A DNA stretch of 49,958 nucleotides from Prevotella sp. (GTDB lineage Bacteria; Bacteroidota; Bacteroidia; Bacteroidales; Bacteroidaceae), in NCBI GenBank assembly GCA_017462915.1, contig JAFTQG010000004.1:1-49958 (forward strand), given 5' to 3'. Position numbers and translations under genes: made by a program. The notes under the pieces are model-generated. The model saw only the letters and a list, made by a program, of their open reading frames with translations. It did not search any database and was not told where the DNA came from. This document shows positions 8,684 to 47,907 of this stretch, piece by piece (position 1 is the first letter of the stretch; each line of letters starts with the position of its first letter).

Positions 8684-10285
8684 ATGGCAGACTGGCATGT
8701 TCCACAGGGACCGTTCGATATCCCGGAGGTCCCAGATTTCGTCCCGCGGCGGCTGAAGCCCTGGCTGTTTATCCTCTTCGTGCTCGTCATCCAGTTCTCG
8801 GGTGGCGTGTACCTCGCCGCCGTGTCCGATATGGTCGGCACTACGGCACTGATGCAGGAGGATATCCTCATGGCAGGCTACGCCTCGCTCGTGGGCATGG
8901 CGATAAACTTCGCCGTGATGTTCCGCATCAAGTTCCGTTTCTCCACACGCACCCAGCTCATCGCGGCAGGCTTTGTGCTGATGGCGGCAAACATCATCTG
9001 CGCCCATACCTCGAGCGTGCCGTTGCTCGTCGCCACATGCTTCGTGGCAGGATGGTTCAGGATGCAGGCCACCCTCGCCTGCAACTCCACCATACAGCTG
9101 TGGCTCACGCCGGTGCGCGACATGGCTGTCTTCTTCTGCTACGTCTATATCGTCGTCGACAGCGTGATACAGCTCAGCGGCATGGCGACAGTCTATACCA
9201 CCTTCCTCGCCCAATGGGAATACATGCACTGGATAATGACCGGACTGCTTGCGCTCATGATACTGGCGGTGACGATACTCGTGAAGCCTCTGCGCGCACC
9301 GATGTTCATCCCCTTGCTCGGCATAGACTGGCTCGGTGCAGCAGTCTGGGCAGGATTCATGCTCAGCTTCACCTTCATCTGCGTTTACGGCCGCTACTTC
9401 GACTGGTGGGAGGCAGCAGAGATAAGGGGCGCGACACTTATCGCCATCGCCTGCCTCGCCCTTAACCTGTGGCGCGCGACATTCCTCCGCCATCCATACA
9501 TCTCGTTCAGGGCAATGACAAACCGCAACGTCATACGCGCCACAGCTGTCTATCTCGTCTTCTTCACCCTGCTGGCAACCGAGCATGTCTTCGAGCACAG
9601 CTATGCCGCGGTCATACTGGGATACGACGAGACCAACCTCATAGACCTCAACTGGTATGCCCTCACAGGCATCATCGCCGGATGCGCCTTCACCTACTTC
9701 ACGTTCGCCCTCCGCAAGTGGCGCTACAAGACCATGACGGCGACAGCCTTCGCCCTTGCCGCCTGTTACCTCGCCTGGTTCTATTTCTTCATAGACTACG
9801 GCGTGGAGAAGGAAGCGCTCTTCCTGCCGCTCTTCCTCCGCGGCATGGCGTCGGTGACGCTCTCCATCGTCTTCCTTACCTCCATCGTGCAGAGCAGACT
9901 GCCGTTCCAGGTGTTCCCGCAGGCACTGACTATCAACGGATTCACAGGAGCCGTCATGGGCGCGACCCTCGGACCGGCAATCATCGGCGAACTGCTGACA
10001 CGCACCATGGCAAGAAACGCCTCCCTACTCGGCGCAAACGTCACGGCTCTGAATCCCGACATGACATTCACATCCATCGGACAATATTACGGCATGGTAC
10101 AGACACAGGCTCTCGTGGTCTCCATGAAGGAAATCTACGGATGGCTGCTCATGGTATCGCTGGCAGCGCTACTGACGATACTCATAAGCTACGGCAATGT
10201 GCGCCCCTTCGCCGTATTCCCCAAATGGAGCACCGTCAGGCGGAGCATAAGACACGCCGTGAGGACGACAAGTCAGGAAAGTTAA
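8684..10285 (+). CDS. MFS transporter, EmrB-like (DHA2-type) drug:proton antiporter
   Basis: 533 residues with about 14 hydrophobic helices, the size and layout of EmrB-type MFS antiporters. As the third gene of the TolC-HlyD-MFS operon it should be the inner-membrane pump of a tripartite exporter. It is more divergent from classic EmrB than its partners: I do not see a clean motif A, so the substrate could be something other than a drug. It is convergent with the histidine kinase gene, with a 56-bp gap. Confidence 0.85.
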   Translation: MADWHVPQGPFDIPEVPDFVPRRLKPWLFILFVLVIQFSGGVYLAAVSDMVGTTALMQEDILMAGYASLVGMAINFAVMFRIKFRFSTRTQLIAAGFVLMAANIICAHTSSVPLLVATCFVAGWFRMQATLACNSTIQLWLTPVRDMAVFFCYVYIVVDSVIQLSGMATVYTTFLAQWEYMHWIMTGLLALMILAVTILVKPLRAPMFIPLLGIDWLGAAVWAGFMLSFTFICVYGRYFDWWEAAEIRGATLIAIACLALNLWRATFLRHPYISFRAMTNRNVIRATAVYLVFFTLLATEHVFEHSYAAVILGYDETNLIDLNWYALTGIIAGCAFTYFTFALRKWRYKTMTATAFALAACYLAWFYFFIDYGVEKEALFLPLFLRGMASVTLSIVFLTSIVQSRLPFQVFPQALTINGFTGAVMGATLGPAIIGELLTRTMARNASLLGANVTALNPDMTFTSIGQYYGMVQTQALVVSMKEIYGWLLMVSLAALLTILISYGNVRPFAVFPKWSTVRRSIRHAVRTTSQES

Positions 10286-10341
10286 AAGCATACACTCAAC
10301 CTTTACATATACATAAAAGAGCCCGCACTCTCGTCCTTCTG

Positions 10342-11157
10342 TCAAGTTAGAAAGCGGAGGTCTATCACCAGCCTGACACGGTATGTTCCCTCCTGTGTGA
10401 GCCCACAATCAAGGCTGTGGCGGTCGGAATAGAGCAGGGAGAGTCGGCGGCGACAGTTAGCGAGCCCCATCTGTCTGGATGCAGCAGTCGTGCGTCCAGG
10501 CACGGAGTTCGTCACCTCGAAGCCGAGCTCCCCTCCATGCTGCCAGAGACTGATATGGACAAAACAGGGAGTATTGGAGGAAATGCCGTATTTGAAGGCA
10601 TTCTCCACAAAGGTGATGAGCAACATCGGATGAACAAGAACCGCATCATCCTCTACCTCGCTATGGAAACGGACATCGGCAAACTCGTTGAGACGCAGTT
10701 CCTGTAAGCCGATATAATGTCCAATATACTCCACTTCTTCGGCAAGAGAGATAAACTCAAGTCCGGCATTGTTGTACATATATTTCGTGAGAGTGATGAA
10801 TCGCTCGAGGGCTTTTTCCGTCTTGTCGGAATGAGTAATGAGCAGGCCATATATCGTGTTGAGGGTATTAAACAGAAAGTGAGGGTTTATCTGTGCCTTG
10901 TACAGAGCCAGCTCAGCCTTGTTACGCTCGTACTCCAGTTCCTCGCGTGCAAGCCGTTGACGGTATGCCTCGGTGAGCATACCAACGGCCACGCAAAATA
11001 TCACCACCACGATATAGTGCAACCATACCGCCTGCTGGTTCATCCTGATGCCCCATATCGGGACATTGACTGTCTCCAGCTGCTGTTGCCAGATATGATA
11101 AAACGGGGAAGTGATGTCGTAGAGCGAGAAAACGAATGTCACCGTCAGAGAGATCAC
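10342..11157 (-). CDS. LytS/YpdA-type sensor histidine kinase, apparently N-terminally truncated
   Basis: 271 residues. The kinase part is complete: phospho-acceptor histidine in INPHFLFNTLNTIYGL, N-box ENAFKYG, and a glycine box around MGLANCRRRLSLLY. The N-terminus keeps only about two hydrophobic segments; relatives usually have around 350 residues and four helices. The only start found is GTG at 11157, but the frame stays open upstream for 17 more codons with basic residues typical of a cytoplasmic loop between helices (FHRGRRRVH) and no ATG before a TAA at 11209-11211. This suggests loss of the first helices. No LytTR response regulator is nearby. It may be a decaying gene. Confidence 0.8.
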   Translation of the reverse strand: MISLTVTFVFSLYDITSPFYHIWQQQLETVNVPIWGIRMNQQAVWLHYIVVVIFCVAVGMLTEAYRQRLAREELEYERNKAELALYKAQINPHFLFNTLNTIYGLLITHSDKTEKALERFITLTKYMYNNAGLEFISLAEEVEYIGHYIGLQELRLNEFADVRFHSEVEDDAVLVHPMLLITFVENAFKYGISSNTPCFVHISLWQHGGELGFEVTNSVPGRTTAASRQMGLANCRRRLSLLYSDRHSLDCGLTQEGTYRVRLVIDLRFLT

Positions 11158-23910: not shown

Positions 23911-25041
23911 TCAGTCCCACCATAAATGCCATACTGTAGAATCCTTCATCGTGGCGGCAAGTGTCGCAAGGTTGTCATAACCTTGATAGACTGCATCAGG
24001 ACAGTATGCAAACTGTTCTTCGGCGAGCTTCATGGTGTCTCCCGTGACAGGTTGCGGCACAGTATATCCTATAGCATCGCACGATATATATGCGACAGTA
24101 GCCCCATACGTCTCATACCAGTATTTCGCGACAGCCATATGGTATTCCGCCTCGGGGCATTCGTTCCAGCCACCCACAGGGATATACAGGAAAATCTCCC
24201 ATGGGTTCTTTACAGGAACCTCCACAAGCATGATAGTATCTGTATTGAAATAGAACCCGTTGGTTGCATCATAATGCAAATCCGTGCCGACAACAGTCTC
24301 ATGCCAATGGGCTTCTCCATAATCCTGTACAACAGATTGATGCTCATCCTCCAGCCGTTTGGCAAGAAAAGCCTTGCCGTCCGCTATCGGCTTGCCCTTC
24401 ATCTGCTGTCTCCATTCTATGAAATCCGCCTTCGTTTCTCCCGAGATTGACCCCATAAGACTATCCATCAGGGGGTCACTCATTTCCAGCAACACAGGAC
24501 AGAACCCCTCTCGCCTACCACGTTCCTGTGCCTTGCGCCATAGATCCTGCAATTCTTCTGCAGTGGCTTTCTTGTCAACATACGTGAAACGGCAGTCTTC
24601 AATAATCGCTTCCACCATTTCACACGTTTCCTTACAAAGCGGTTCGTGATACACTGGTTCTTGTTGCTCCTCTATAACCTTCGCATTATCAAGAGATATA
24701 CGGTAGAGTTTTGCCAGTTTCACGACACGCCATGCGATGAAAAGCATCACGGCTACTGCGGTATAATACTGTTCTCCTTCGATAATGCGCAGGACAAGAT
24801 GTGCAGTCAAGAGCACAAACATACCGCCCCAGATAAGGAGTTGCCTACGCAGGATACGGCAGACACCCCTCCAGTCGTCAGCCTCCACGAGCGCATCGAT
24901 GTCCGTTCCCATTTTCTTCTCTGCCCTACGCTTGTAATGATAAAGGACAACAAAGGCGGCAATCCCTATGAATACTGCGATATGAATATACATTTCCATG
25001 GTCATTGATATTGTTTTATGGTGCATCTGTTCGTGGAGCAT
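23911..25041 (-). CDS. Membrane-anchored DUF4253 protein
   Basis: Up to 376 residues; ATG codons at residues 14 and 16 give starts closer to the first helix (MEMYIHIAVFIGIAAF). Two to three hydrophobic helices at about 17-35 and 70-110 are followed by a soluble part ending in a DUF4253 domain (about 270-376): NPWEIFLYIPVGGWNECPE, VAKYWYETYGATVAYIS, then STVWHLWWD at the C-terminus. The family is of unknown function. The N-terminal membrane part is not standard for DUF4253 proteins. It stands alone, without operon partners. Confidence 0.8.
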   Translation of the reverse strand: MLHEQMHHKTISMTMEMYIHIAVFIGIAAFVVLYHYKRRAEKKMGTDIDALVEADDWRGVCRILRRQLLIWGGMFVLLTAHLVLRIIEGEQYYTAVAVMLFIAWRVVKLAKLYRISLDNAKVIEEQQEPVYHEPLCKETCEMVEAIIEDCRFTYVDKKATAEELQDLWRKAQERGRREGFCPVLLEMSDPLMDSLMGSISGETKADFIEWRQQMKGKPIADGKAFLAKRLEDEHQSVVQDYGEAHWHETVVGTDLHYDATNGFYFNTDTIMLVEVPVKNPWEIFLYIPVGGWNECPEAEYHMAVAKYWYETYGATVAYISCDAIGYTVPQPVTGDTMKLAEEQFAYCPDAVYQGYDNLATLAATMKDSTVWHLWWD

Positions 25042-39070: not shown

Positions 39071-40150
39071 ATGAATATTGACGAGATAAAGGACAAGAAT
39101 ATCGCTGTACTGCTGTCCGGCGGCGTGGACTCTGCCGTAGTGCTTCATCTGCTGTGTGAACAGGGCATGAAGCCCGACTGCTTCTATATAAAGATAGGTC
39201 CTGACGAGAAAGACGAATATGACTGTACATCCGAGGAAGACCTTGAGATGGCGACAGCTCTATGCCACAGATACGGATGTTGCCTTGAGACAGTAGACTG
39301 CCACCGCGAATACTGGGACAAGGTGACTGCCTATACTATGGAAAAGGTGCGCAACGGGTTCACACCAAACCCTGACGTCATGTGCAACAGACTGATAAAG
39401 TTCGGTGCTTTCCACGAGAAAAGAGGACACGCCTATGACCTCATAGCGACGGGCCACTATGCACAGACAGAGGTCATAGATGGCAGGAAATGGCTCTGCA
39501 CATCGCCCGACCCGATAAAAGACCAGACGGATTTCCTTGCACAGATTTACGACTGGCAACTGAAGAAGGCCATCTTCCCTATCGGCGGACTTCATAAAGA
39601 AGAGGTGCGACGAATAGCCGAGGAGAATCATCTCATCAACGCAAGACGTAAGGACTCGCAGGGAATATGCTTTCTCGGCAAGATCAATTACAATGACTAC
39701 ATACGCAAGTATCTCGGCGAGCAGGAGGGCGAAGCCATAGAGCTCGAGACGGGCAAGCTAATCGGCAAGCATCGGGGACACTGGTTTCACACAATCGGAC
39801 AGCGCAAAGGACTGGGATTCGGCGGAGGACCGTGGTTTGTAGTGAAAAAGGATATATCGAGAAACATCATCTATCTCTCACACGGATACGACCCAGCCAG
39901 CGCATATACAGCCGAGTTTGTCATCCATGACCTGCATCTCCTCACAGACAATATCATGCCTGAGCATGACATAACATTCAAGATACGGCACACTGCGGAC
40001 ATCAACAGGGCGACAATAGAGCATACCGGAGACGGAAGATACCGCATCTGTTCGGAGAAACCTATCCATGGTGTTGCCCCTGGGCAGTTCTGCGTCATCT
40101 ATGACAGCGACCACCATCGATGCTTCGGGTCTGGCGAGATAACCCTCTGA
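39071..40150 (+). CDS. mnmA: tRNA-specific 2-thiouridylase
   Basis: 359 residues. Adds sulfur to U34 of tRNAs for Lys, Glu and Gln. PP-loop LLSGGVDSAV (about 15), catalytic cysteines in NPDVMCNRLIKF (about 103) and DSQGICFLGKI (about 200), and the tRNA-binding/beta-barrel part after about 210 (HRGHWFHTIGQRKGLGFGG). The N-terminal PP-loop lacks the usual GMSGGVDS start, as in the Bacteroidota type. Followed by a strong terminator. Confidence 0.95.
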   Translation: MNIDEIKDKNIAVLLSGGVDSAVVLHLLCEQGMKPDCFYIKIGPDEKDEYDCTSEEDLEMATALCHRYGCCLETVDCHREYWDKVTAYTMEKVRNGFTPNPDVMCNRLIKFGAFHEKRGHAYDLIATGHYAQTEVIDGRKWLCTSPDPIKDQTDFLAQIYDWQLKKAIFPIGGLHKEEVRRIAEENHLINARRKDSQGICFLGKINYNDYIRKYLGEQEGEAIELETGKLIGKHRGHWFHTIGQRKGLGFGGGPWFVVKKDISRNIIYLSHGYDPASAYTAEFVIHDLHLLTDNIMPEHDITFKIRHTADINRATIEHTGDGRYRICSEKPIHGVAPGQFCVIYDSDHHRCFGSGEITL

Positions 40151-40159
40151 CAAAAAATA

Positions 40160-40202
40160 AACAGCCATTGAAATTGTCTTTCTGGTAATTTCAATGGCTG
40201 TT
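40160..40202 (+). terminator. Intrinsic terminator of mnmA
   Basis: AACAGCCATTGAAATT (40160-40175) is exactly complementary to 40187-40202, 16-bp stem with 11-nt loop, followed by ACCTTTTC. It starts about 10 bp past the mnmA stop. Confidence 0.75.
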
Positions 40203-40264
40203 ACCTTTTCATGCGAAATAGGATGTTAGGCTTTGTATAAAGTTTTCCACTGGATAATGCTAAA

Positions 40265-40303
40265 GAAACAGGTAGTTTCCATGTCAGAAACAGGTAGTTT
40301 CCA
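40265..40303. repeat. 17-bp direct repeat (two copies)
   Basis: GAAACAGGTAGTTTCCA at 40265-40281 and again at 40287-40303. Further on, CGCAGAT recurs three times at 40434-40456. The spacer 40203-40572 holds no gene that I can support; it separates mnmA from the accessory block. Confidence 0.6.
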
Positions 40304-40572
40304 CATTGAAAAAAGGCGGTTTTCTTACAGCCATGTGTCTGCATACTCCCGTGTTATCAAGCATAATCTGCATGACACATTAATACGTGAGTTCGGGATA
40401 ATTTCAGAACTCGCACATTAATCATTATACCACGCAGATTGCGCAGATAACGCAGATGTTTTTCCTAAATTATATTCGACCATTTTCACGCCCAGCACGG
40501 TGCTCACACTCTTTCTGTACCCACTTACTCAAAGGGTTGCAATACATGATAAATATGAAACGACTATGAATT

Positions 40573-41367
40573 CTAATGATCCATTTGGGTTAAGACATAG
40601 CTTTTCAACTTTTCCGCATATATCCTATAATTTTCCAGTTCTCTTTGCTGACCCGAATCTACATCTATATTGTCTGTGCCATACAGTTCCCGAAGCCTTT
40701 GGATCTCACTGACCTCTATCTTGAACTTTCTTTCCAAGTTACTTAAAATATTGTCCACATACTTGCAAGCCATCTCTGGCTGACCATCGGCAAGATAAAG
40801 AACTGGTGACAGAACTTTTGCATTCATACCAAACTTCAGTTTATTATCCTCCATATCCATTATTACATTCTTTATTGTAGAATACCTGTCAATTACAGGC
40901 ATGGCATATTCTATCAATCCGACAACCTCATCAATTACCTCAGCGATTTCCTCTTCTGTTGCAATATCTGCCAACCGCCATTCCTTATAAACATGATTCG
41001 GTCCCAAATATCCCAATCCACGACCAAAACCACTTGTCAGCACACCAGCTTCTTTCTCGATTTTCTTCACGATAGGGAAATCTATGAAGACTGATACTGA
41101 ATAATATTTTATATGTGGCTCATCATGATATGTAGAATGTCCCCACATGATGCTTTGCACACCATCTCCATTTTCCTTTATAAAAGTCTCTTTATTCTTT
41201 CGCCTGAAGCCCAAATGATTAAGCTTCTCATTCAAACGCTCATTGTAAGTTATATACCGTTTCGCCATAACATTGCCTTTCTGCACAGGCTTTTCCTGTC
41301 CCTCTACAGGTAATGTCTCTTCAGGCTTTCTGTTCTGCCTAAACAGTTCAAATAATCGTTTCAACAT
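40573..41367 (-). CDS. Uncharacterised protein with DUF4304-like segment
   Basis: 264 residues, soluble, no signal peptide. N-terminus MLKRLFELFRQNRKPEE is shared in style with two other genes of the block. Residues about 40-110 (LNHLGFRRKNKETFIKENG, then YYSVSVFIDFPIVKKIEKE) resemble DUF4304-type proteins; the C-terminal half (VLYLADGQPEMACKYVDNIL) is helical and unknown. It is last in a same-strand run of ten genes and is preceded by a 23-bp gap from the membrane-protein gene. Confidence 0.7.
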   Translation of the reverse strand: MLKRLFELFRQNRKPEETLPVEGQEKPVQKGNVMAKRYITYNERLNEKLNHLGFRRKNKETFIKENGDGVQSIMWGHSTYHDEPHIKYYSVSVFIDFPIVKKIEKEAGVLTSGFGRGLGYLGPNHVYKEWRLADIATEEEIAEVIDEVVGLIEYAMPVIDRYSTIKNVIMDMEDNKLKFGMNAKVLSPVLYLADGQPEMACKYVDNILSNLERKFKIEVSEIQRLRELYGTDNIDVDSGQQRELENYRIYAEKLKSYVLTQMDH

Positions 41368-41390
41368 ATTATTCCTTTATTTATCTGTCA

Positions 41391-41945
41391 CTATCGCCTC
41401 AAAAACAGGAAGTAAAAGCCTAAAAGCACCAATGCACAGCACCCCAAGAACAATGCTAAGGCCTTGCGGTGTACGGATTTAGACTTACGTCTGTATTTCT
41501 TGATTATCTTGTCCTGGCCCACTGTCGCCTCCATTCTCGATGCACTGAACATGGCAAGAGCACCTATCACCGTCAAAATGATTCCTCCATTCGCACCGTT
41601 TATCTGTATTATACCCCAATCGCTGCCAAATATCATGCGGAGAATCCACATTATGTCAAAATAGGCAAAAGTGTAGAGCAACGTAAACTTTGGATAAATA
41701 TGCCATTCCAATGTATGCCCATAGTTTGAATCCGCAAGTTTATCACATAATTTCATCGTGTCATTCACATGTTGCTTTGGAGTCAATCCGCGTTTTGCAA
41801 GATTACGCTTTGCAAAAGGCAATATATGCATCATTAATACATATAATGGTCGCATTATAGGTCTAAGTATCCGTCTTACCATTCGGTCTGTCATCCACTC
41901 AAAATAATATGCCCCAAAATATAGTAACTCAAAAAACTTTCTCAT
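41391..41945 (-). CDS. Uncharacterised membrane protein
   Basis: 184 residues with three or four hydrophobic segments (about 76-100, 112-130 and 160-180), the last ending LLGFYFLFLRR with a positive C-terminus. The N-terminal 50 residues are basic (MVRRILRPIMRPLYVLM) and could lie along the membrane. I do not recognise a family. Same operon-like run as its neighbours. Confidence 0.65.
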   Translation of the reverse strand: MRKFFELLYFGAYYFEWMTDRMVRRILRPIMRPLYVLMMHILPFAKRNLAKRGLTPKQHVNDTMKLCDKLADSNYGHTLEWHIYPKFTLLYTFAYFDIMWILRMIFGSDWGIIQINGANGGIILTVIGALAMFSASRMEATVGQDKIIKKYRRKSKSVHRKALALFLGCCALVLLGFYFLFLRR

Positions 41946-42012
41946 AACTTATTTTTTTTAGAATCCCATGTCAAACGTTTGTGTATCTGGCTTACCTTGT
42001 TCATGCCCAGTA

Positions 42013-42669
42013 CTACGGGTGGGGATTCTGCTCTCGTTTTTCCAAGACGTTCTTGAAAAACAGTCCCGACAGACCAGCCTCCTTCATTTTTAATGCTGTT
42101 TTTGTGCCAACAATTAGCACTGGAGACTTGTCATAATAACTGCCGTAGCAGTATTCTGTGCGGCAAATGAAGTCATCTGTAGCGATATGTTGTTCTTTTG
42201 CCTTGTAACTCGAGGGATGTATAATCTCGTCATAACAGCCACAGCATTCGCGTTTATTTGTAAACTTAGTGTCTTTTATATCAAGTTTGAATATATTCTT
42301 AGCCTCGAAATAATAATACCCAGGAGATTTGGGCAAAGACGTGAACGCCAACCCTTCATATTCGTTTAATTCGCAGAACCTCTTGAATTTTTCCGATACA
42401 ATACAAAAGGAATCGTAAGTATAGAACATATCTCCTTTCCTTTTTTTCATGCGATAGTCGGGATTAGGTATCTTCTTCAAAGAGTTATGGCATACAGGAC
42501 ACAGCCCTGGCTCTGTAGTCCCTCTACCATACATGAAATCCGCATCATACCCATAGACTTTTTTTGCGACAAGTTTGCCTCTTGGCTTTACAAGTTTGGG
42601 GTATCTCACCACTGGCTTTTTTTCTTGCTCGCCTCCAAAACCGAATAATCTCAATAATTGTTTCAGCAT
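42013..42669 (-). CDS. Cys-motif protein, immunity-like, paralogue 1
   Basis: 218 residues from ATG at 42669 (MLKQLLRLFGFGGEQ), chosen because the paralogue starts at the same point. Cys pairs (GLCPVCHNSLKKIP and RECCGCYDEII) suggest zinc binding. The body (FCELNEYEGLAFTSLPKSPG, YYYFEAKNIFKL) and the C-terminal VGTKTALKMKEAGLSGLFF follow the layout of double-CXXCG/Imm11-type immunity proteins; this is a resemblance, not a proven match. 110 bp separates it from its paralogue upstream. A 24-bp DNA stretch before it (42694-42717) recurs upstream of the paralogue. Confidence 0.72.
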   Translation of the reverse strand: MLKQLLRLFGFGGEQEKKPVVRYPKLVKPRGKLVAKKVYGYDADFMYGRGTTEPGLCPVCHNSLKKIPNPDYRMKKRKGDMFYTYDSFCIVSEKFKRFCELNEYEGLAFTSLPKSPGYYYFEAKNIFKLDIKDTKFTNKRECCGCYDEIIHPSSYKAKEQHIATDDFICRTEYCYGSYYDKSPVLIVGTKTALKMKEAGLSGLFFKNVLEKREQNPHP

Positions 42670-42778
42670 AATAGTATTTTTATTTGTGAAAAGCCCCATG
42701 ATATCCATGAACGCAACATCTTGTTATTCAAATAAAGATCAATACACATTCTCAGGAAAATTATATGTCCCATATCTA

Positions 42779-43417
42779 TTATGGATGTTCTCGCACATTA
42801 TCAAAATATATCCCGGACAGTCCAAACTGTCGCATCTTTCCTACCGTTTTTGTCCCTACAATTATATCTGGAGATTTTCTATTAAAACTACCATAACTAT
42901 ATTCCGAACGGCAAATAAAATCGTCCGTACATATATATTGACTCTTCGCCTTATAGCAGGAAGGAAGTATTATCTCGTCGTAGCTACCGCAACACTCTCG
43001 CTTATTTGTGAATTTGGTGACAGCAGTGTCAAGTTTAAAAATATTATAAGCCTCAAAATAGTAATATCCAGGAGATTTAGGCAATGGTACAAACGACAAC
43101 CCTTCATATCCATTATCATTGCAGAACCTTCTGAATTTTTCTGTGACAATATAAAAATCATCATATGTACAAAACAAATCACCTTTTTTCTTCTGCATAC
43201 AATAGCCCAAATCGGGAATCTTCTTAAGAGAATTGTGACAGGTTGGACATAGCCCTGGTTCTTCATCCTTACTACTGTACATACAGTCAGCATCTGCACC
43301 AATAAGTTTTTTTGCAACAACTTTACCTTTAAGTTTTACACGTTTCTGAACTTTCCTTACAGGCTCTTTCTCCTGCTTACTTTCCAGTCCAAATAATCTT
43401 AATAATCGTTTCAGCAT
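42779..43417 (-). CDS. Cys-motif protein, immunity-like, paralogue 2
   Basis: 212 residues. Paralogue of the previous gene along its whole length: MLKRLLRLFGLESKQEKEP, GLCPTCHNSLKKIP, RECCGSYDEIILP and C-terminal VGTKTVGKMRQFGLSGIYF. One of the two CxxC-like motifs differs (CCGS instead of CCGC), so the metal site may be altered. Ends without the long tail of paralogue 1. Confidence 0.72.
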   Translation of the reverse strand: MLKRLLRLFGLESKQEKEPVRKVQKRVKLKGKVVAKKLIGADADCMYSSKDEEPGLCPTCHNSLKKIPDLGYCMQKKKGDLFCTYDDFYIVTEKFRRFCNDNGYEGLSFVPLPKSPGYYYFEAYNIFKLDTAVTKFTNKRECCGSYDEIILPSCYKAKSQYICTDDFICRSEYSYGSFNRKSPDIIVGTKTVGKMRQFGLSGIYFDNVREHP

Positions 43418-43442
43418 AAGTGTCTTGGTTTATTTATTAAAT

Positions 43443-43616
43443 CTACCCATGGTCTCCATGAACGCAACACTCACTGATGTTTGTATGTGTATCCTGCGAA
43501 TATCTGCCCAATTGGGAGTCATGATCGAAGGCTGCACCTCTTAAAAAGCAACAGCTATACAGCACATGTATCACTAATAGACACATCGCTATCATAAATG
43601 TCTTTTTCTGTTTCAT
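43443..43616 (-). CDS. Possible small lipoprotein
   Basis: 57 residues from ATG at 43616. Signal peptide MKQKKTFMIAMCLLVIHVLY followed by a lipobox-type SC. The mature part is only about 35 residues (GRYSQDTHTNISECC). Its last codons lie in the 24-bp stretch duplicated upstream of paralogue 1, so it may be a remnant left by the duplication. The next gene starts 26 bp on. Could be a real small lipoprotein or debris. Confidence 0.35.
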   Translation of the reverse strand: MKQKKTFMIAMCLLVIHVLYSCCFLRGAAFDHDSQLGRYSQDTHTNISECCVHGDHG

Positions 43617-43675
43617 AGTTACCATATACTTAACGGATTGTTATAGCCACAATACGAATATGCACCTGTATAAAG

Positions 43676-44320
43676 TCATCTTGATGTCTTCTGTTCCTGC
43701 TTCCATTTCTTCCAGTCTGCCTCATCCTCCCAAAGCCATTTCTGTTCCTTTAACTGATGGTTCACATGCCACATATCCAGAAGTTCTGATTGTTCACTTA
43801 TCGGGAAAAAGAAATATTCCTTTCCGTTTTCCATTGTCTCTGCATCAGATTTATCTACCTCAAAAAGCCTTTCACGCCCTGTTATCATATATTTGTGCAT
43901 CCTCATCTTCCAAACAGATTCCTTCACATCAACGGTATTTGCATATATCATCTTGCCTTCCGCATAATATACGCCACAACGCCCAATGATGATTCTGTGT
44001 TCATTGATATATCTGTACAAATTATCCTTTATTTCGGCAAACATCCTGTCAGGAGAATTAGAATTAACACTAAACAATGCCACAGTTCCATCCCCAAAGA
44101 ACATAATGCAATCCATATAGAGCCTCCCGTCACGCATCGTGGATTCATTGTCTTTTGCCATATAGACACCATCAGTGTTTACTGGAACTACAGTCATATC
44201 ACCCTTATATCTTATACGTGTATTCAACCGTGCTTCACGTTTCGTATCCAATACAGGGAAGTTTGACAGACATGAGCCAAGAGATAGTGTCATGAGTATT
44301 ATTGCGAATATTCTTTTCAT
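43676..44320 (-). CDS. Uncharacterised lipoprotein, paralogue A1
   Basis: 214 residues. Signal peptide with lipobox SLGSC (Cys17). The body has a strand-rich pattern (CIMFFGDGTVALFSVNSN; LYRYINEHRIIIGRCGVYY) and ends WLWEDEADWKKWKQEQK, the same end as the next gene. Full-length paralogue of the gene at 44375. Both cysteines of the pair IGRCGVY / ITRCGIY are kept. Function unknown; periplasmic side of a membrane. Confidence 0.75.
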   Translation of the reverse strand: MKRIFAIILMTLSLGSCLSNFPVLDTKREARLNTRIRYKGDMTVVPVNTDGVYMAKDNESTMRDGRLYMDCIMFFGDGTVALFSVNSNSPDRMFAEIKDNLYRYINEHRIIIGRCGVYYAEGKMIYANTVDVKESVWKMRMHKYMITGRERLFEVDKSDAETMENGKEYFFFPISEQSELLDMWHVNHQLKEQKWLWEDEADWKKWKQEQKTSR

Positions 44321-44354
44321 ATCCGAAGATTTATTTTAAATACCGTTTTCTTAC

Positions 44355-44362
44355 CAAAGATA
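44355..44362 (-). promoter_or_regulatory. -7 box before paralogue A1
   Basis: TATCTTTG in the 54-bp gap between the two paralogous lipoprotein genes, about 35 bp before the ATG at 44320. It could start a separate transcript for the downstream genes. Confidence 0.35.
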
Positions 44363-44374
44363 ATATCGTTTCCG

Positions 44375-45067
44375 CTATTTTCGTCGTGTCTCTTTCTGTT
44401 CCTGCTTCCATTTCTTCCAGTCCGCCTCATCCTCCCAAAGCCATTTCTGTTTCTTCACATAGCGGTTTACGTAACGCATATTCAAAGGTTCCGTCTGCTC
44501 ATTTATTGGAAAGAACACATATTTTCTGAATATAATATCATTGCTTATTCTCGGCCATCCAAGAGAGCAGTGAATTAACAGCAAATGCTCATATCCCTCA
44601 ATCCTGTATATCGGGTTTTCTACAGTCCATATATACTGATATCTGTCAAATGAATTTGTATAAATATCATTACCCACAATTTTATAAATGCCACAACGCG
44701 TTATTGGTATCTTTCGCTCGTTGATATATCTGTAAAGATTGTCCCTTATGTCGTCTTCCGTCTTGCAACAAGAATCTTTGTACAAAGTGAATTCAGCAAT
44801 TGTACCGTCATCCAAAAACATCACACAATTTCTTCCACTATAACTTCCAGGGAAGCCTGCAACAGTGTCCTTCACAAGTAGCGGCCGTCCATCATCTTTT
44901 ATATAAAAACCATTTATGTTTATATATTTTTCTATATTTGTACTCTTTCCTGTATATTTTACAGATGCCTTCGCCTTTGCCTCTTTTTTTGTATTAAACA
45001 ACAAGAAGCCAGGCCAACAGGAACCAAGACAAGACGTCAGGATGATGATAAATAAAATCTTCTTCAT
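44375..45067 (-). CDS. Uncharacterised lipoprotein, paralogue A2
   Basis: 230 residues. Lipobox CLGSC (Cys17). Paralogue of the gene at 43676 (CVMFLDDGTIAEFTLYKDS; LYRYINERKIPITRCGIY) with extra residues in the first third. The last 17 shared residues are nearly identical also at DNA level (43690-43745 against 44395-44455), which suggests recent duplication or gene conversion at this end. 11 bp separates it from the preceding gene. Confidence 0.75.
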   Translation of the reverse strand: MKKILFIIILTSCLGSCWPGFLLFNTKKEAKAKASVKYTGKSTNIEKYININGFYIKDDGRPLLVKDTVAGFPGSYSGRNCVMFLDDGTIAEFTLYKDSCCKTEDDIRDNLYRYINERKIPITRCGIYKIVGNDIYTNSFDRYQYIWTVENPIYRIEGYEHLLLIHCSLGWPRISNDIIFRKYVFFPINEQTEPLNMRYVNRYVKKQKWLWEDEADWKKWKQEQKETRRK

Positions 45068-45078
45068 ATCATAGATAA

Positions 45079-45528
45079 TTATGGTTCCATGTATCTTATA
45101 TTTCTATCAAACTTACCGTCGACATCTCTCGTGACAATACATTTCCCGAACAGTTTCTTGTCACGGATTTCGTCCAGCGAATATTTCTTGACTTTGCCAT
45201 ATTTTACTAAGAAAAAATATAAAGTGTCCGTCTTGGCAAACAAATAGTCAACATCTATAACGCCGATAGAGTCTGGCTCTATAATTTCTATATCGTCACT
45301 CCCTCTCCAAAAGGCTATAGCCTCGGTATGTGGAGAACTAAAATCGCTACACAATTGAAGACATACACTGTCTATCTCTGCATAACGAGATGCACCTATT
45401 ACCAATGTATCGCCAGTACAGTTCTTAAAAAGACAGGCGCGTTCTGAATCGTACACACAAGACGAGAATAGACAAACAACCATTAAGGTGCACGCTAAAA
45501 GATGTATTTTGTTCTTGGTCTTATTCAT
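45079..45528 (-). CDS. Uncharacterised short lipoprotein, paralogue B1
   Basis: 149 residues. Signal peptide and lipobox LFSSC (Cys about 24). Shares a pattern with the upstream gene: LFKNCTGDTLVIG near the start, IIEPDSIGVIDVDY in the middle and KYSLDEIRDKKLFGKCIVTR near the end. A small beta-rich envelope protein of unknown role. Confidence 0.7.
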   Translation of the reverse strand: MNKTKNKIHLLACTLMVVCLFSSCVYDSERACLFKNCTGDTLVIGASRYAEIDSVCLQLCSDFSSPHTEAIAFWRGSDDIEIIEPDSIGVIDVDYLFAKTDTLYFFLVKYGKVKKYSLDEIRDKKLFGKCIVTRDVDGKFDRNIRYMEP

Positions 45529-45549
45529 TATAACTACGGATGATAAAAC

Positions 45550-46044
45550 TTAATGGTCGCCCTTAGAGCCTGTCGGTTTATACTCAAACAAACGGTTATG
45601 AAAATCTTTCTTTGTTACAATCTGTCTGTCGTAAAGTTTTCTTGCACGTATTTCTTCCAGCGGATAATGTTTCACATCTTGCCACTTTATGGCATAAATA
45701 TAATAATATGGCTCTTTGAGATTTAATACATATGCATCAGCAATTATCAAAGAATCAGGCAACACATAGTATTCTTTTTTTATAATTACCTCTTTCCCAT
45801 CTATATAAATCGCCAATGTATCTGGAGCCATTATCCCAATAGTATCTTCTGGATTTTCATCCCAGTACACCCAATCATCAAGAGTATCAGACTCTGTCAG
45901 ATCAATAAGCAAAGTGTCTTTCGTGCAATTCTTTATTAGGAAACTCCCTTGACAAGATGTGCAAGAACTAAATGATATCAATGCCAAAGACATACATATC
46001 AGAATATTGCGTATTTGTTCCACATTCATATTATATACATGCAT
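45550..46044 (-). CDS. Uncharacterised short lipoprotein, paralogue B2
   Basis: 164 residues. Lipobox SFSSC (Cys about 28), followed by TSCQGSFLIKNCTKDTLLI. Paralogue of the previous gene: IMAPDTLAIYIDGKEV corresponds to IIEPDSIGVIDVDY, and HYPLEEIRARKLYDRQIVTK to KYSLDEIRDKKLFGKCIVTR. First gene of the block; no clear -7 box was found upstream. An ATG at residue 6 is an alternative start. Confidence 0.7.
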   Translation of the reverse strand: MHVYNMNVEQIRNILICMSLALISFSSCTSCQGSFLIKNCTKDTLLIDLTESDTLDDWVYWDENPEDTIGIMAPDTLAIYIDGKEVIIKKEYYVLPDSLIIADAYVLNLKEPYYYIYAIKWQDVKHYPLEEIRARKLYDRQIVTKKDFHNRLFEYKPTGSKGDH

Positions 46045-46197: not shown

Positions 46198-47907
46198 TCA
46201 GTCTATTTCCTTTATCTGCTTTTTCACAAGTTCTATCTCCTCCTTGAGCTTCTCTACCCGTCGGTTCATCTCGTCGAGGAGGGAGTTGCCCTTCTTGGAA
46301 GATATGGAGAGGAAACCGAGATTGTTCTCATAGGTCTTGAGGTCTCCCCTCATCTGGTCCAGCTTGCGTTGCAGGCGTGTGCGTTCGTTGTCTACAGCCT
46401 GCTCGCCACGCTTGGCGACAGCCTTTATGTTCTGCTTGAAATTGTCCATGCGGCGACGCTGGCTGTTGGCGTTCAAGGTCTTGTGTATCTTGTCAAGTGC
46501 GGCATGATACTCATCGTATATCTTGTCCTTCTCCTTGAACGGGACATGTCCCACCTCGTTGAATCTGTCGATGAGTTCACGCATACGCTGCTGCAGGTCT
46601 TCTCCTGCCTCTTCGGCAAGGGTCTCCAGCTCTGCGACAATCTCCTTTTTCTTCTGCAGATTCTCCTTCTCGGCGTTGCGTGTGCCGGAGTTGGCGGCGT
46701 TGCGTGCCTCGAAGAAGTGGTTGCAGGCACCGATAAACTCCTGCCAGAGCTGGTCGCCGACTTTCTTCGGCACCATGCCTATCTCCTTCCATTCCTTCTG
46801 CAGCTGCATCATCTTGTCGGCAGTCTGCTTCCAGTCTGTGCTGTCCATCAGAGCCTTTGCCCTGTCGATGAGTGCCTGCTTCTTCTCGGCATTCTCGGCG
46901 AAGCGTTCCTTCATCTCCTTGAAGTATTGTGTCTTGCGCTGGAAGAACTGGTCGCAGGCGATGCGGAAGCGCTCGAAGATCTTCACATTCATCTTCTGAG
47001 GAGCGAATCCTATGGTCTTCCATTCTGCCTGCAGGGCGAGGACGAGCTTTGTCACCTCCTCCCACTCGGCGGAGTTTTGGCACTCGCGCTTAGAGAGTTC
47101 CTCTGCCTGTTCGCAGAGGGCGGTCTTCTTTGCGAGATTCTCTTCCTCCTTGGCACGTATGTCTTCAAAATGCTGCTGGTGGCGTTTGTTCACTACGGTG
47201 CTCGCCGCCTTGAACCGTGTCCATACCTGTTCGCGCAGGTCCTTGGCTACCGGTCCCACCTCGCGGTACTCCTGATGGAGGTCCTGCAACTGGTGGAATG
47301 CGCTGATGACATCCTCTTCATCGGCAAGTTTCTCTGCAAGTTCGCAGAGGCGGGTCTTAGCCTCAAGGTTTTTCTTGAAATCATACTCACGAGCCTCGGA
47401 GTTGAGTTTCAGCATGTCGTAGAACTGTTCTACATACAGCTGATACGAGCGCCAGGTCTCGGTGGCGTTCTCTGCCGGCACCTGTCCTGTCTCCTTCCAC
47501 TGTGCCTGCAGGTCCTTGAAGTCCTGATAAGACCTGTTGGCCTCCTCGGGAGATGTCACCATTGCCTTTATCTTTTCTATGATGGCCTGCTTCTTGGTGA
47601 GGTTTGCCTGCTTCTCGGCCTCCTGTGCGGCGAAGACTTTCTGACGCTTCTCGCGGATGACAGCCATCGCTGTCTTGAATGTCTCCTCCGTGTCGTCGGC
47701 CTGGATGACATATTTCTCAGGGTCGCCGCCCTCGTCGAGGTATGTCTTCAGCTTCTGCTCACGCTCTTGGAAGTGTAACTTGTAGAACAGGCTCTTAAGG
47801 AGTTCCACCTCTTCCTTCTCGGGAGTTTCTTCACTTTGAGCGAGTTCTTTCACGCGTTCGATAACCTGCGCTATTGTCTCATAACGCTTCTCTTCAGAGT
47901 CCATCAT
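46198..47907 (-). CDS. DUF349 repeat protein
   Basis: 569 residues, soluble, almost entirely alpha-helical. Several tandem DUF349 units of about 75 residues are visible, each with a tryptophan-led motif (LQAQWKETGQVP, LHQEYREVGPVA, LQAEWKTIGFAP, LQKEWKEIGMVP, LIDRFNEVGHVP), so five units at about 120-480. The C-terminus is a coiled coil (EMNRRVEKLKEEIELVKKQ). Abundant in Bacteroidota; function unknown. The promoter may lie at 48154-48185. Confidence 0.9.
   Translation of the reverse strand: MMDSEEKRYETIAQVIERVKELAQSEETPEKEEVELLKSLFYKLHFQEREQKLKTYLDEGGDPEKYVIQADDTEETFKTAMAVIREKRQKVFAAQEAEKQANLTKKQAIIEKIKAMVTSPEEANRSYQDFKDLQAQWKETGQVPAENATETWRSYQLYVEQFYDMLKLNSEAREYDFKKNLEAKTRLCELAEKLADEEDVISAFHQLQDLHQEYREVGPVAKDLREQVWTRFKAASTVVNKRHQQHFEDIRAKEEENLAKKTALCEQAEELSKRECQNSAEWEEVTKLVLALQAEWKTIGFAPQKMNVKIFERFRIACDQFFQRKTQYFKEMKERFAENAEKKQALIDRAKALMDSTDWKQTADKMMQLQKEWKEIGMVPKKVGDQLWQEFIGACNHFFEARNAANSGTRNAEKENLQKKKEIVAELETLAEEAGEDLQQRMRELIDRFNEVGHVPFKEKDKIYDEYHAALDKIHKTLNANSQRRRMDNFKQNIKAVAKRGEQAVDNERTRLQRKLDQMRGDLKTYENNLGFLSISSKKGNSLLDEMNRRVEKLKEEIELVKKQIKEID

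Follow-up and report, generated by a model that had tools for sequence, protein, structure and literature searches.

The gene row between mnmA and the DUF349 gene

The DNA examined here, which we call the window, is one entire contig (JAFTQG010000004.1, 49,958 nt) of a 2.93-Mb Prevotella sp. assembly in 59 contigs. Positions 40573–46044 of the window hold a block of nine short open reading frames (ORFs), all on the minus strand with intergenic gaps of 11–70 nt, which an earlier note had read as an array of orphan immunity genes. The block is bordered by mnmA on one side and by a DUF349 gene on the other. Its G+C content ranges from 37 to 41 per cent; counted by kilobase, G+C is 0.366–0.405 over positions 40001–46000, compared with 0.420–0.588 in the remaining kilobases of the window. 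Eight of the nine ORFs are intact and fall into five families (short lipoproteins, long lipoproteins, Cys-motif proteins, a membrane protein and a DUF4304 protein), with lengths of 149–264 codons each; the ninth has 60 codons. The features are listed below, with the toxin class to which each product is a candidate immunity protein.

39071..40150 (+): mnmA, left border; best matches to this protein were found in 141/150 genomes of the genus, and the name is that of the earlier note
40573..41367 (-): DUF4304 protein, 264 aa, candidate immunity to a nuclease-like toxin domain (Pfam 5.8e-5; relatives stand behind such a C-terminus or its tail)
41391..41945 (-): membrane protein, 184 aa, with hydrophobic stretches at residues 115-135 and 157-184; candidate immunity to a glycine-rich, membrane-like toxin domain, behind which its family stands in relatives
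42013..42708 (-): Cys-motif protein, 231 aa, 68% identical to the 212-aa Cys protein and of the same family
42705..42740 (-): possible relic, 12 residues resembling the terminal part of a GHH-type toxin; it overlaps the 231-aa Cys gene at its start
42779..43417 (-): Cys-motif protein, 212 aa, candidate immunity to GHH-type RHS toxins, since its family stands behind RHS genes with a GHH-type C-terminus
43443..43625 (-): 60-aa ORF with a hydrophobic N-terminus (stretch 8-33), starting at the stop of the Ntox23-like relic; placed by position and hydrophobic stretch
43622..43675 (-): relic, 18 residues resembling the Ntox23 C-terminus followed by a stop codon; recognized by tail-profile score
43676..44320 (-): long lipoprotein, 214 aa, same family as its 230-aa neighbour (45% identity between the two)
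44375..45067 (-): long lipoprotein, 230 aa, candidate immunity to Ntox23, since its family stands behind Ntox23 in loci L063, L069 and L131
45079..45528 (-): short lipoprotein, 149 aa, same family as its 164-aa neighbour (34% identity between the two)
45550..46044 (-): short lipoprotein, 164 aa, candidate immunity to HExGH RHS toxins, on the basis of its lipobox, its ORF and the place of its family behind RHS-HExGH genes
46198..47907 (-): DUF349 gene, right border (Pfam 1.7e-100); it adjoins mnmA in genomes G661 and G680 too

The earlier note had described a one-strand, A/T-rich block built of paralogous pairs, with a membrane protein and a DUF4304-like protein among its products, and all of this was borne out; its count of ten genes was one too many. 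The tiny lipoprotein that it named is there as the 60-aa ORF, though this is possibly a truncated long-lipoprotein gene. The match of the 60-aa ORF to the lipoprotein profile is circular, the ORF itself being a row of that alignment. The statement that the proteins were unrecognised held with one exception: searches of the nine block proteins against Pfam, NCBIfam and PADLOC gave no family above cut-off (PADLOC 0/9) other than Pfam DUF4304 (PF14137), at 23.5 bits against a curated cut-off of 23.2. The closest homologue of that protein in G596, a genome of the same genus, has no Pfam match. Among solved structures, the best match of the Cys profile had an E value of 0.086 and that of the DUF4304 profile one of 0.075.

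Toxin C-termini in front of the five families

We fetched 57 loci (given here by their L numbers) and took the longest same-strand ORF ending near the start of each family member as its upstream neighbour. Loci L025 and L028, which lie on the same contigs as L018 and L019, were left out of the neighbour counts, as were short search loci overlapping fetched stretches. In these relatives some members of each of the five families pair with a toxin class of their own, mostly on RHS proteins. Counting ORFs outside the window, the Cys family had an RHS-core gene upstream in 5/19, with a GHH-type C-terminus in all five (L020, L027, L029, L058, L059); the GHH regular expression missed L020 and L027, both of which were placed in the GHH group by BLAST. 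Short lipoproteins followed an RHS-core gene with an HExGH motif in 6/32 ORFs (L057, L111 twice, L114, L116 twice). Ntox23 lay upstream of the long lipoproteins in 2/19, once in a protein with no RHS core (L063, Pfam 1.4e-58) and once on an RHS protein (L069, 2.7e-35). A glycine-rich C-terminus preceded the membrane protein in two of four ORFs (L057, L109), and the DUF4304 family had a nuclease-like C-terminus or the tail of one upstream in two of ten: an RHS-like fragment in L107, and in L019 a 59-aa ORF that matches the end of the L107 fragment (E 1.7e-5). The check proposed by the earlier note, whether relatives have such genes next to polymorphic toxins, came out positive for members of all five families.

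The RHS core model TIGR03696 matches 6/9 of the toxin-side proteins scanned. We name the domains from their motifs, as putatively GHH-type, metallopeptidase (those with HExGH), membrane-like and nuclease-like. The HExGH proteins matched the Pfam model eCIS_core below its cut-off only (E 0.026-0.034).

As a blind control, 18 upstream proteins (those of the 17 pairs and L131) were compared all against all at E 0.01, using their C-terminal 140 residues or, for the 59-aa ORF, the whole sequence. This gave 32 links, of which thirty fall within families, and the same partition as the immunity families. The other two, at E 0.007 and 0.01, are marginal and connect the upstream protein of DUF4304 in L107 with the GHH group.

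Because the loci had been collected via the immunity families, we repeated the search from the toxin side. Ntox23 was present in 2/150 genomes of the genus, and long-lipoprotein sequence lies downstream of it in both. The long-lipoprotein gene overlaps the end of the Ntox23 gene in G663 (L131); in G589 (L132, the same place as L068), long-lipoprotein fragments begin about 300 nt downstream of Ntox23. The surroundings of the latter (L068:10295-16558) comprise a 2087-aa RHS protein with a C-terminus that by eye is like a GIY-YIG nuclease, then two similar 162-aa genes, the Ntox23 remnant and the long-lipoprotein fragments. Across the 57 loci there are 33 RHS-core ORFs, fragments included; 13 have one of the five families no more than 120 nt downstream and 20 do not.

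Other arrangements were seen in these loci. A single open frame at L111:7089-8822 has matches to the RHS core as well as to the short-lipoprotein profile, being either an immunity-toxin fusion or a rearranged junction. Three HEYGH proteins, two of them with an RHS core, lie at L069:7022-13826, each followed by a lipoprotein-looking protein of 140-174 aa; these neighbours gave no match to the short-lipoprotein profile at 1e-3 and were left out of the pair counts. At L020:15021-15452, L027:3378-3842 and L068:16537-16980, full-length RHS genes are preceded by a small gene whose product carries a Por secretion tail (type IX sorting domain), above the Pfam cut-off in two of the three and below it in the third. 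The tail suggests type IX secretion.

The families occur in few genomes, own genome included. In single-protein searches of 151 genomes of the family, the Cys protein was present in 5/151 and the long lipoproteins in 3/151. Profile searches found the Cys family in 2/393 genomes of the order and 5/200 of the genus, and the long lipoproteins in 13/200 of the genus; among the same number of genomes of the genus, the membrane protein was present in 3/200, short lipoproteins in 21/200 and DUF4304 relatives in 8/200. The five families are sporadic accessory genes. The Cys protein had no match in plasmids or phages, and its profile run against viral contigs gave 0/85 confirmed candidate stretches. 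Against genome contigs, the single Cys protein as query gave 0/22 confirmed candidates, and the profile then gave 7 loci. The Cys protein is fused to a domain of unknown function at L018:7385-8410, L027:9992-11017 and L035:10105-11106 (on the N-terminal side of the Cys part in L035), and the same extra domain is a separate adjoining gene at L020:7838-8233 and L026:3358-3873. The two together are perhaps a two-domain immunity protein.

Toxin-like remnants and the mnmA–DUF349 site in relatives

According to the earlier note the window contains no toxin gene. No intact gene of the compared classes is present: tblastn of eight RHS or toxin proteins against the window gave no match beyond an 18-residue tail. 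That tail is a toxin-like remnant, however. The 18 Ntox23-like residues stand on the minus strand immediately past the stop of the 214-aa lipoprotein and end in a stop codon where the 60-aa ORF begins. A profile of four Ntox23 tails scored 55.25 at this place and 24.75 at the next-best place in the window, with a maximum of 32.0 in 300 shuffled profiles. With 18 residues left, the relic is not a PF15528 domain match above cut-off, and its likeness rests on the tail profile. It is thus most likely that the lineage of the window lost the toxin of one cassette or more.

The possible GHH-type tail had a score reached in 5/300 shuffles of a five-toxin profile and in 0/300 with the closest toxin alone; the best window place of a longer GHH-tail profile lies elsewhere. 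We keep it as a possible relic only. Tail profiles were also run for the glycine-rich and nuclease-like classes, though not for HExGH, and no place in the window stood out. An RHS core gene with a toxin C-terminus was not found in the window and is present at the same site in G596. In the rest of the window's own genome, one RHS protein of G596 used as query (no positive control) gave no match, and Ntox23 gave none either, the remaining toxin classes not having been searched there.

The G596 contig, L057, ends in the last 90 residues of mnmA, which are 99% identical to the window's mnmA, and is 86% identical to the window in a 2085-nt alignment reaching from mnmA across the membrane-protein gene. 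Of the five families it has four, with five ORFs for short lipoproteins, three for membrane proteins, one for a Cys protein and three for DUF4304 proteins, of which two are partial. Fragments of RHS genes are interleaved among these immunity genes. One with an HExGH C-terminus stands immediately before a short lipoprotein, and another with a glycine-rich C-terminus stands immediately before a membrane protein. The 149-aa short lipoprotein of the window is 66% identical to the L057 copy located directly behind the RHS-HExGH gene. A 2.2-kb stretch of L057 is duplicated with 99% identity, and the contig stops short of the DUF349 gene. The copies of the membrane protein (L057:4862-5413, 8716-9267 and 9895-10443; window:41394-41945) are mosaic, with 46-62% identity over residues 16-95 and 89-100% over residues 96-184, as if a specificity segment had been swapped.

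Two other genomes carry the site at different lengths. In G680 only 510 nt separate mnmA from the DUF349 gene; the distance is about 1.8 kb in G661, where small ORFs lie between and the gap (L163:10268-11640) holds fragments matching DUF1848 and a two-component-type ADP-ribosyltransferase domain. Compared between species, the content of the site differs among the window, L057, L163 and L164, and the site seems to be a hotspot. Eight further genomes (L165-L172), followed for 5-11 kb past mnmA, had neither the DUF349 gene nor any of the five families there, so the site is confined to close relatives. Elsewhere in the window, positions 23911-25041 encode a 376-aa DUF4253 protein (Pfam 3.6e-32).

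With members of all five families directly behind toxin C-termini of their own class, and RHS fragments amid four of the five at the G596 site, the reading of the earlier note gained support. We think it likely that the block is an orphan immunity array, with eight intact immunity genes of five families against five toxin-domain classes mostly C-terminal on RHS proteins, and with the stump of one more toxin-immunity cassette. It would lie at a variable mnmA–DUF349 site and have arisen at least partly by toxin loss from an RHS cassette array. For every cassette except the tail-bearing one, loss rather than gain is what we infer. The earlier note had also said what would speak against immunity, namely homologues always toxin-free and in fixed order, or matches to metabolic families; what we found was a sporadic distribution and a changing gene order.

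Several points weigh against this reading. Outside the window, most members of the families do not directly follow a toxin, having another upstream ORF or none, and four kinds of C-termini (GHH-type, HExGH, glycine-rich and nuclease-like) are not assigned to any toxin family by Pfam. The syntenic L057 has no long lipoprotein, and one of the two genomes with Ntox23 (G589; L068) had already been collected through the lipoprotein search. Last, pairwise dN/dS against the G596 copies (DUF4304, 0.27; membrane protein, 0.22-0.29; 212-aa Cys protein, 0.20 with dS 1.44; short lipoproteins, 0.44 and 0.33; mnmA end, 0.02; three further comparisons saturated) counts in favour of the reading but does not tell the branch, and selection in the toxin-free lineage is not assignable from it.

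The same data bear on the view that the block is decaying debris, the leftovers of an RHS locus that give no present protection and are on their way out. The truncated cassette (the Ntox23-like tail with the 60-aa ORF), the many fragments in L057 and the near relative with just 510 nt at the site would all fit such decay; eight ORFs are nevertheless intact, and the values of 0.20-0.44, though not assignable to the window's branch, count against it. We consider debris unlikely. The earlier note had offered a different alternative, a new lipoprotein-based envelope system with cooperating parts, for which four lipoproteins and a membrane protein encoded in one row could speak. In other genomes, however, the families separate and their neighbours change, and the recurring partner is the toxin class. 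With no constant partners and no support found, we rejected this proposal as extremely improbable.

Known immunity loci, mechanism and meaning

Zhang et al. (2012, PMC3482391) set heterogeneous polyimmunity loci apart from toxin loci and state that toxins do not interrupt them. The block resembles them as tandem, co-directional and closely spaced unrelated candidate immunity genes, more than four in number and variable among relatives, with no toxin genes between. There are five unrelated families here, assigned to immunity from their neighbours in relatives. No toxin gene or cassette stands between the genes (the 18-residue tail is all that tblastn of eight proteins left there). Orientation, small gaps, the eight intact ORFs and the variation between relatives agree as well. 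The difference from that description is that a near relative's same site has RHS fragments between the genes and that a toxin-like tail is left in the window. The block fits a heterogeneous polyimmunity locus, probably made by toxin loss from an RHS cassette array.

A second comparison is with the orphan immunity clusters of Bacteroidales known as AID and rAID, effector-free rows of short genes in one orientation, found in the same bacterial order (PMC12247911). There, rAID loci have a tyrosine recombinase and conserved intergenic motifs and are described against type VI effectors; the partners here are RHS-linked toxins. The block's co-oriented genes have the length of about 100-300 codons typical of rAID, apart from the 60-codon ORF. 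By this model the array would have been built by acquiring single immunity genes, not by toxin loss. Its resemblance to rAID in layout, its low G+C and the long lipoproteins, which are not at the relative's site and may be among genes that arrived alone, are consistent with acquisition. The toxin-like tail in the window and the RHS fragments at the same site in the near relative are not. Nor did we find a tyrosine recombinase among the 20 window proteins scanned (not all window ORFs, and the contig ends at 49958), or a repeat of at least 25 nt common to the spacers, a scan that shorter motifs would escape. On these incomplete scans we set rAID membership aside, and we hold acquisition to be very improbable as the origin of the array.

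Two further systems are alike in part. Vibrio cholerae immunity arrays keep immunity genes after effectors have been replaced or lost (Kirchberger et al. 2017, PMC5361080). They come after a functional type VI cluster that has a present-day effector; no such gene was found in the window. Orphan CDI/Rhs modules consist of displaced toxin C-termini and immunity genes, and L057 resembles that state; the accessible sections of Poole et al. (2011, PMC3150448) report orphan immunity that is expressed and functional. In the window, by contrast, the toxin fragments are gone save the tail. Since polyimmunity loci, the V. cholerae arrays and CDI/Rhs orphan modules have been described in these sources, the kind of locus is already known. 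What is added is the set of family-toxin pairings and a fossil at a site with intermediate states. In the literature that we searched there was no report of these pairings, and DUF4304 was not mentioned.

An orphan immunity array of this kind would have formed, at least in part, by deletion of toxins from an RHS cassette array, with the immunity genes left behind as one co-directional row, presumably on a common transcript. The most likely way for it to protect would be that each immunity protein binds toxins of its class one-to-one, in the compartment where the toxin acts; four of the five toxin classes would be enzymes. The Cys and DUF4304 proteins would act in the cytosol against nucleases, the lipoproteins in the envelope against the metallopeptidase and Ntox23, and the membrane protein against a membrane-active domain. 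The computed compartments agree with this mechanism, as the Cys and DUF4304 proteins have no hydrophobic stretch, the partners of HExGH and Ntox23 have lipoprotein signals, and the partner of the glycine-rich domain has membrane segments.

Ntox23 is called a predicted RNase in the part of a 2026 paper (PMC13288982) that names it, and the part of the 2012 catalogue (Zhang et al., PMC3482391) available to us lists no immunity protein for it. An envelope target would fit Ntox23 better than an RNase role, because its partner is a lipoprotein. More tentatively, and with rather less than even confidence, we propose that polyimmunity arrays in this group are made by toxin erosion from type IX-linked RHS cassette arrays, and that the compartment of an immunity protein shows its toxin's site of action, Ntox23 thus being envelope-acting.

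The pairings give each of five poorly described families a concrete partner class, and a lipoprotein as candidate immunity predicts an envelope target for Ntox23. Because an array with a fossil, a relative with fragments and a relative with a near-empty site occur together, loss of toxin and gain of immunity as origins of such arrays may be tested within one small clade.

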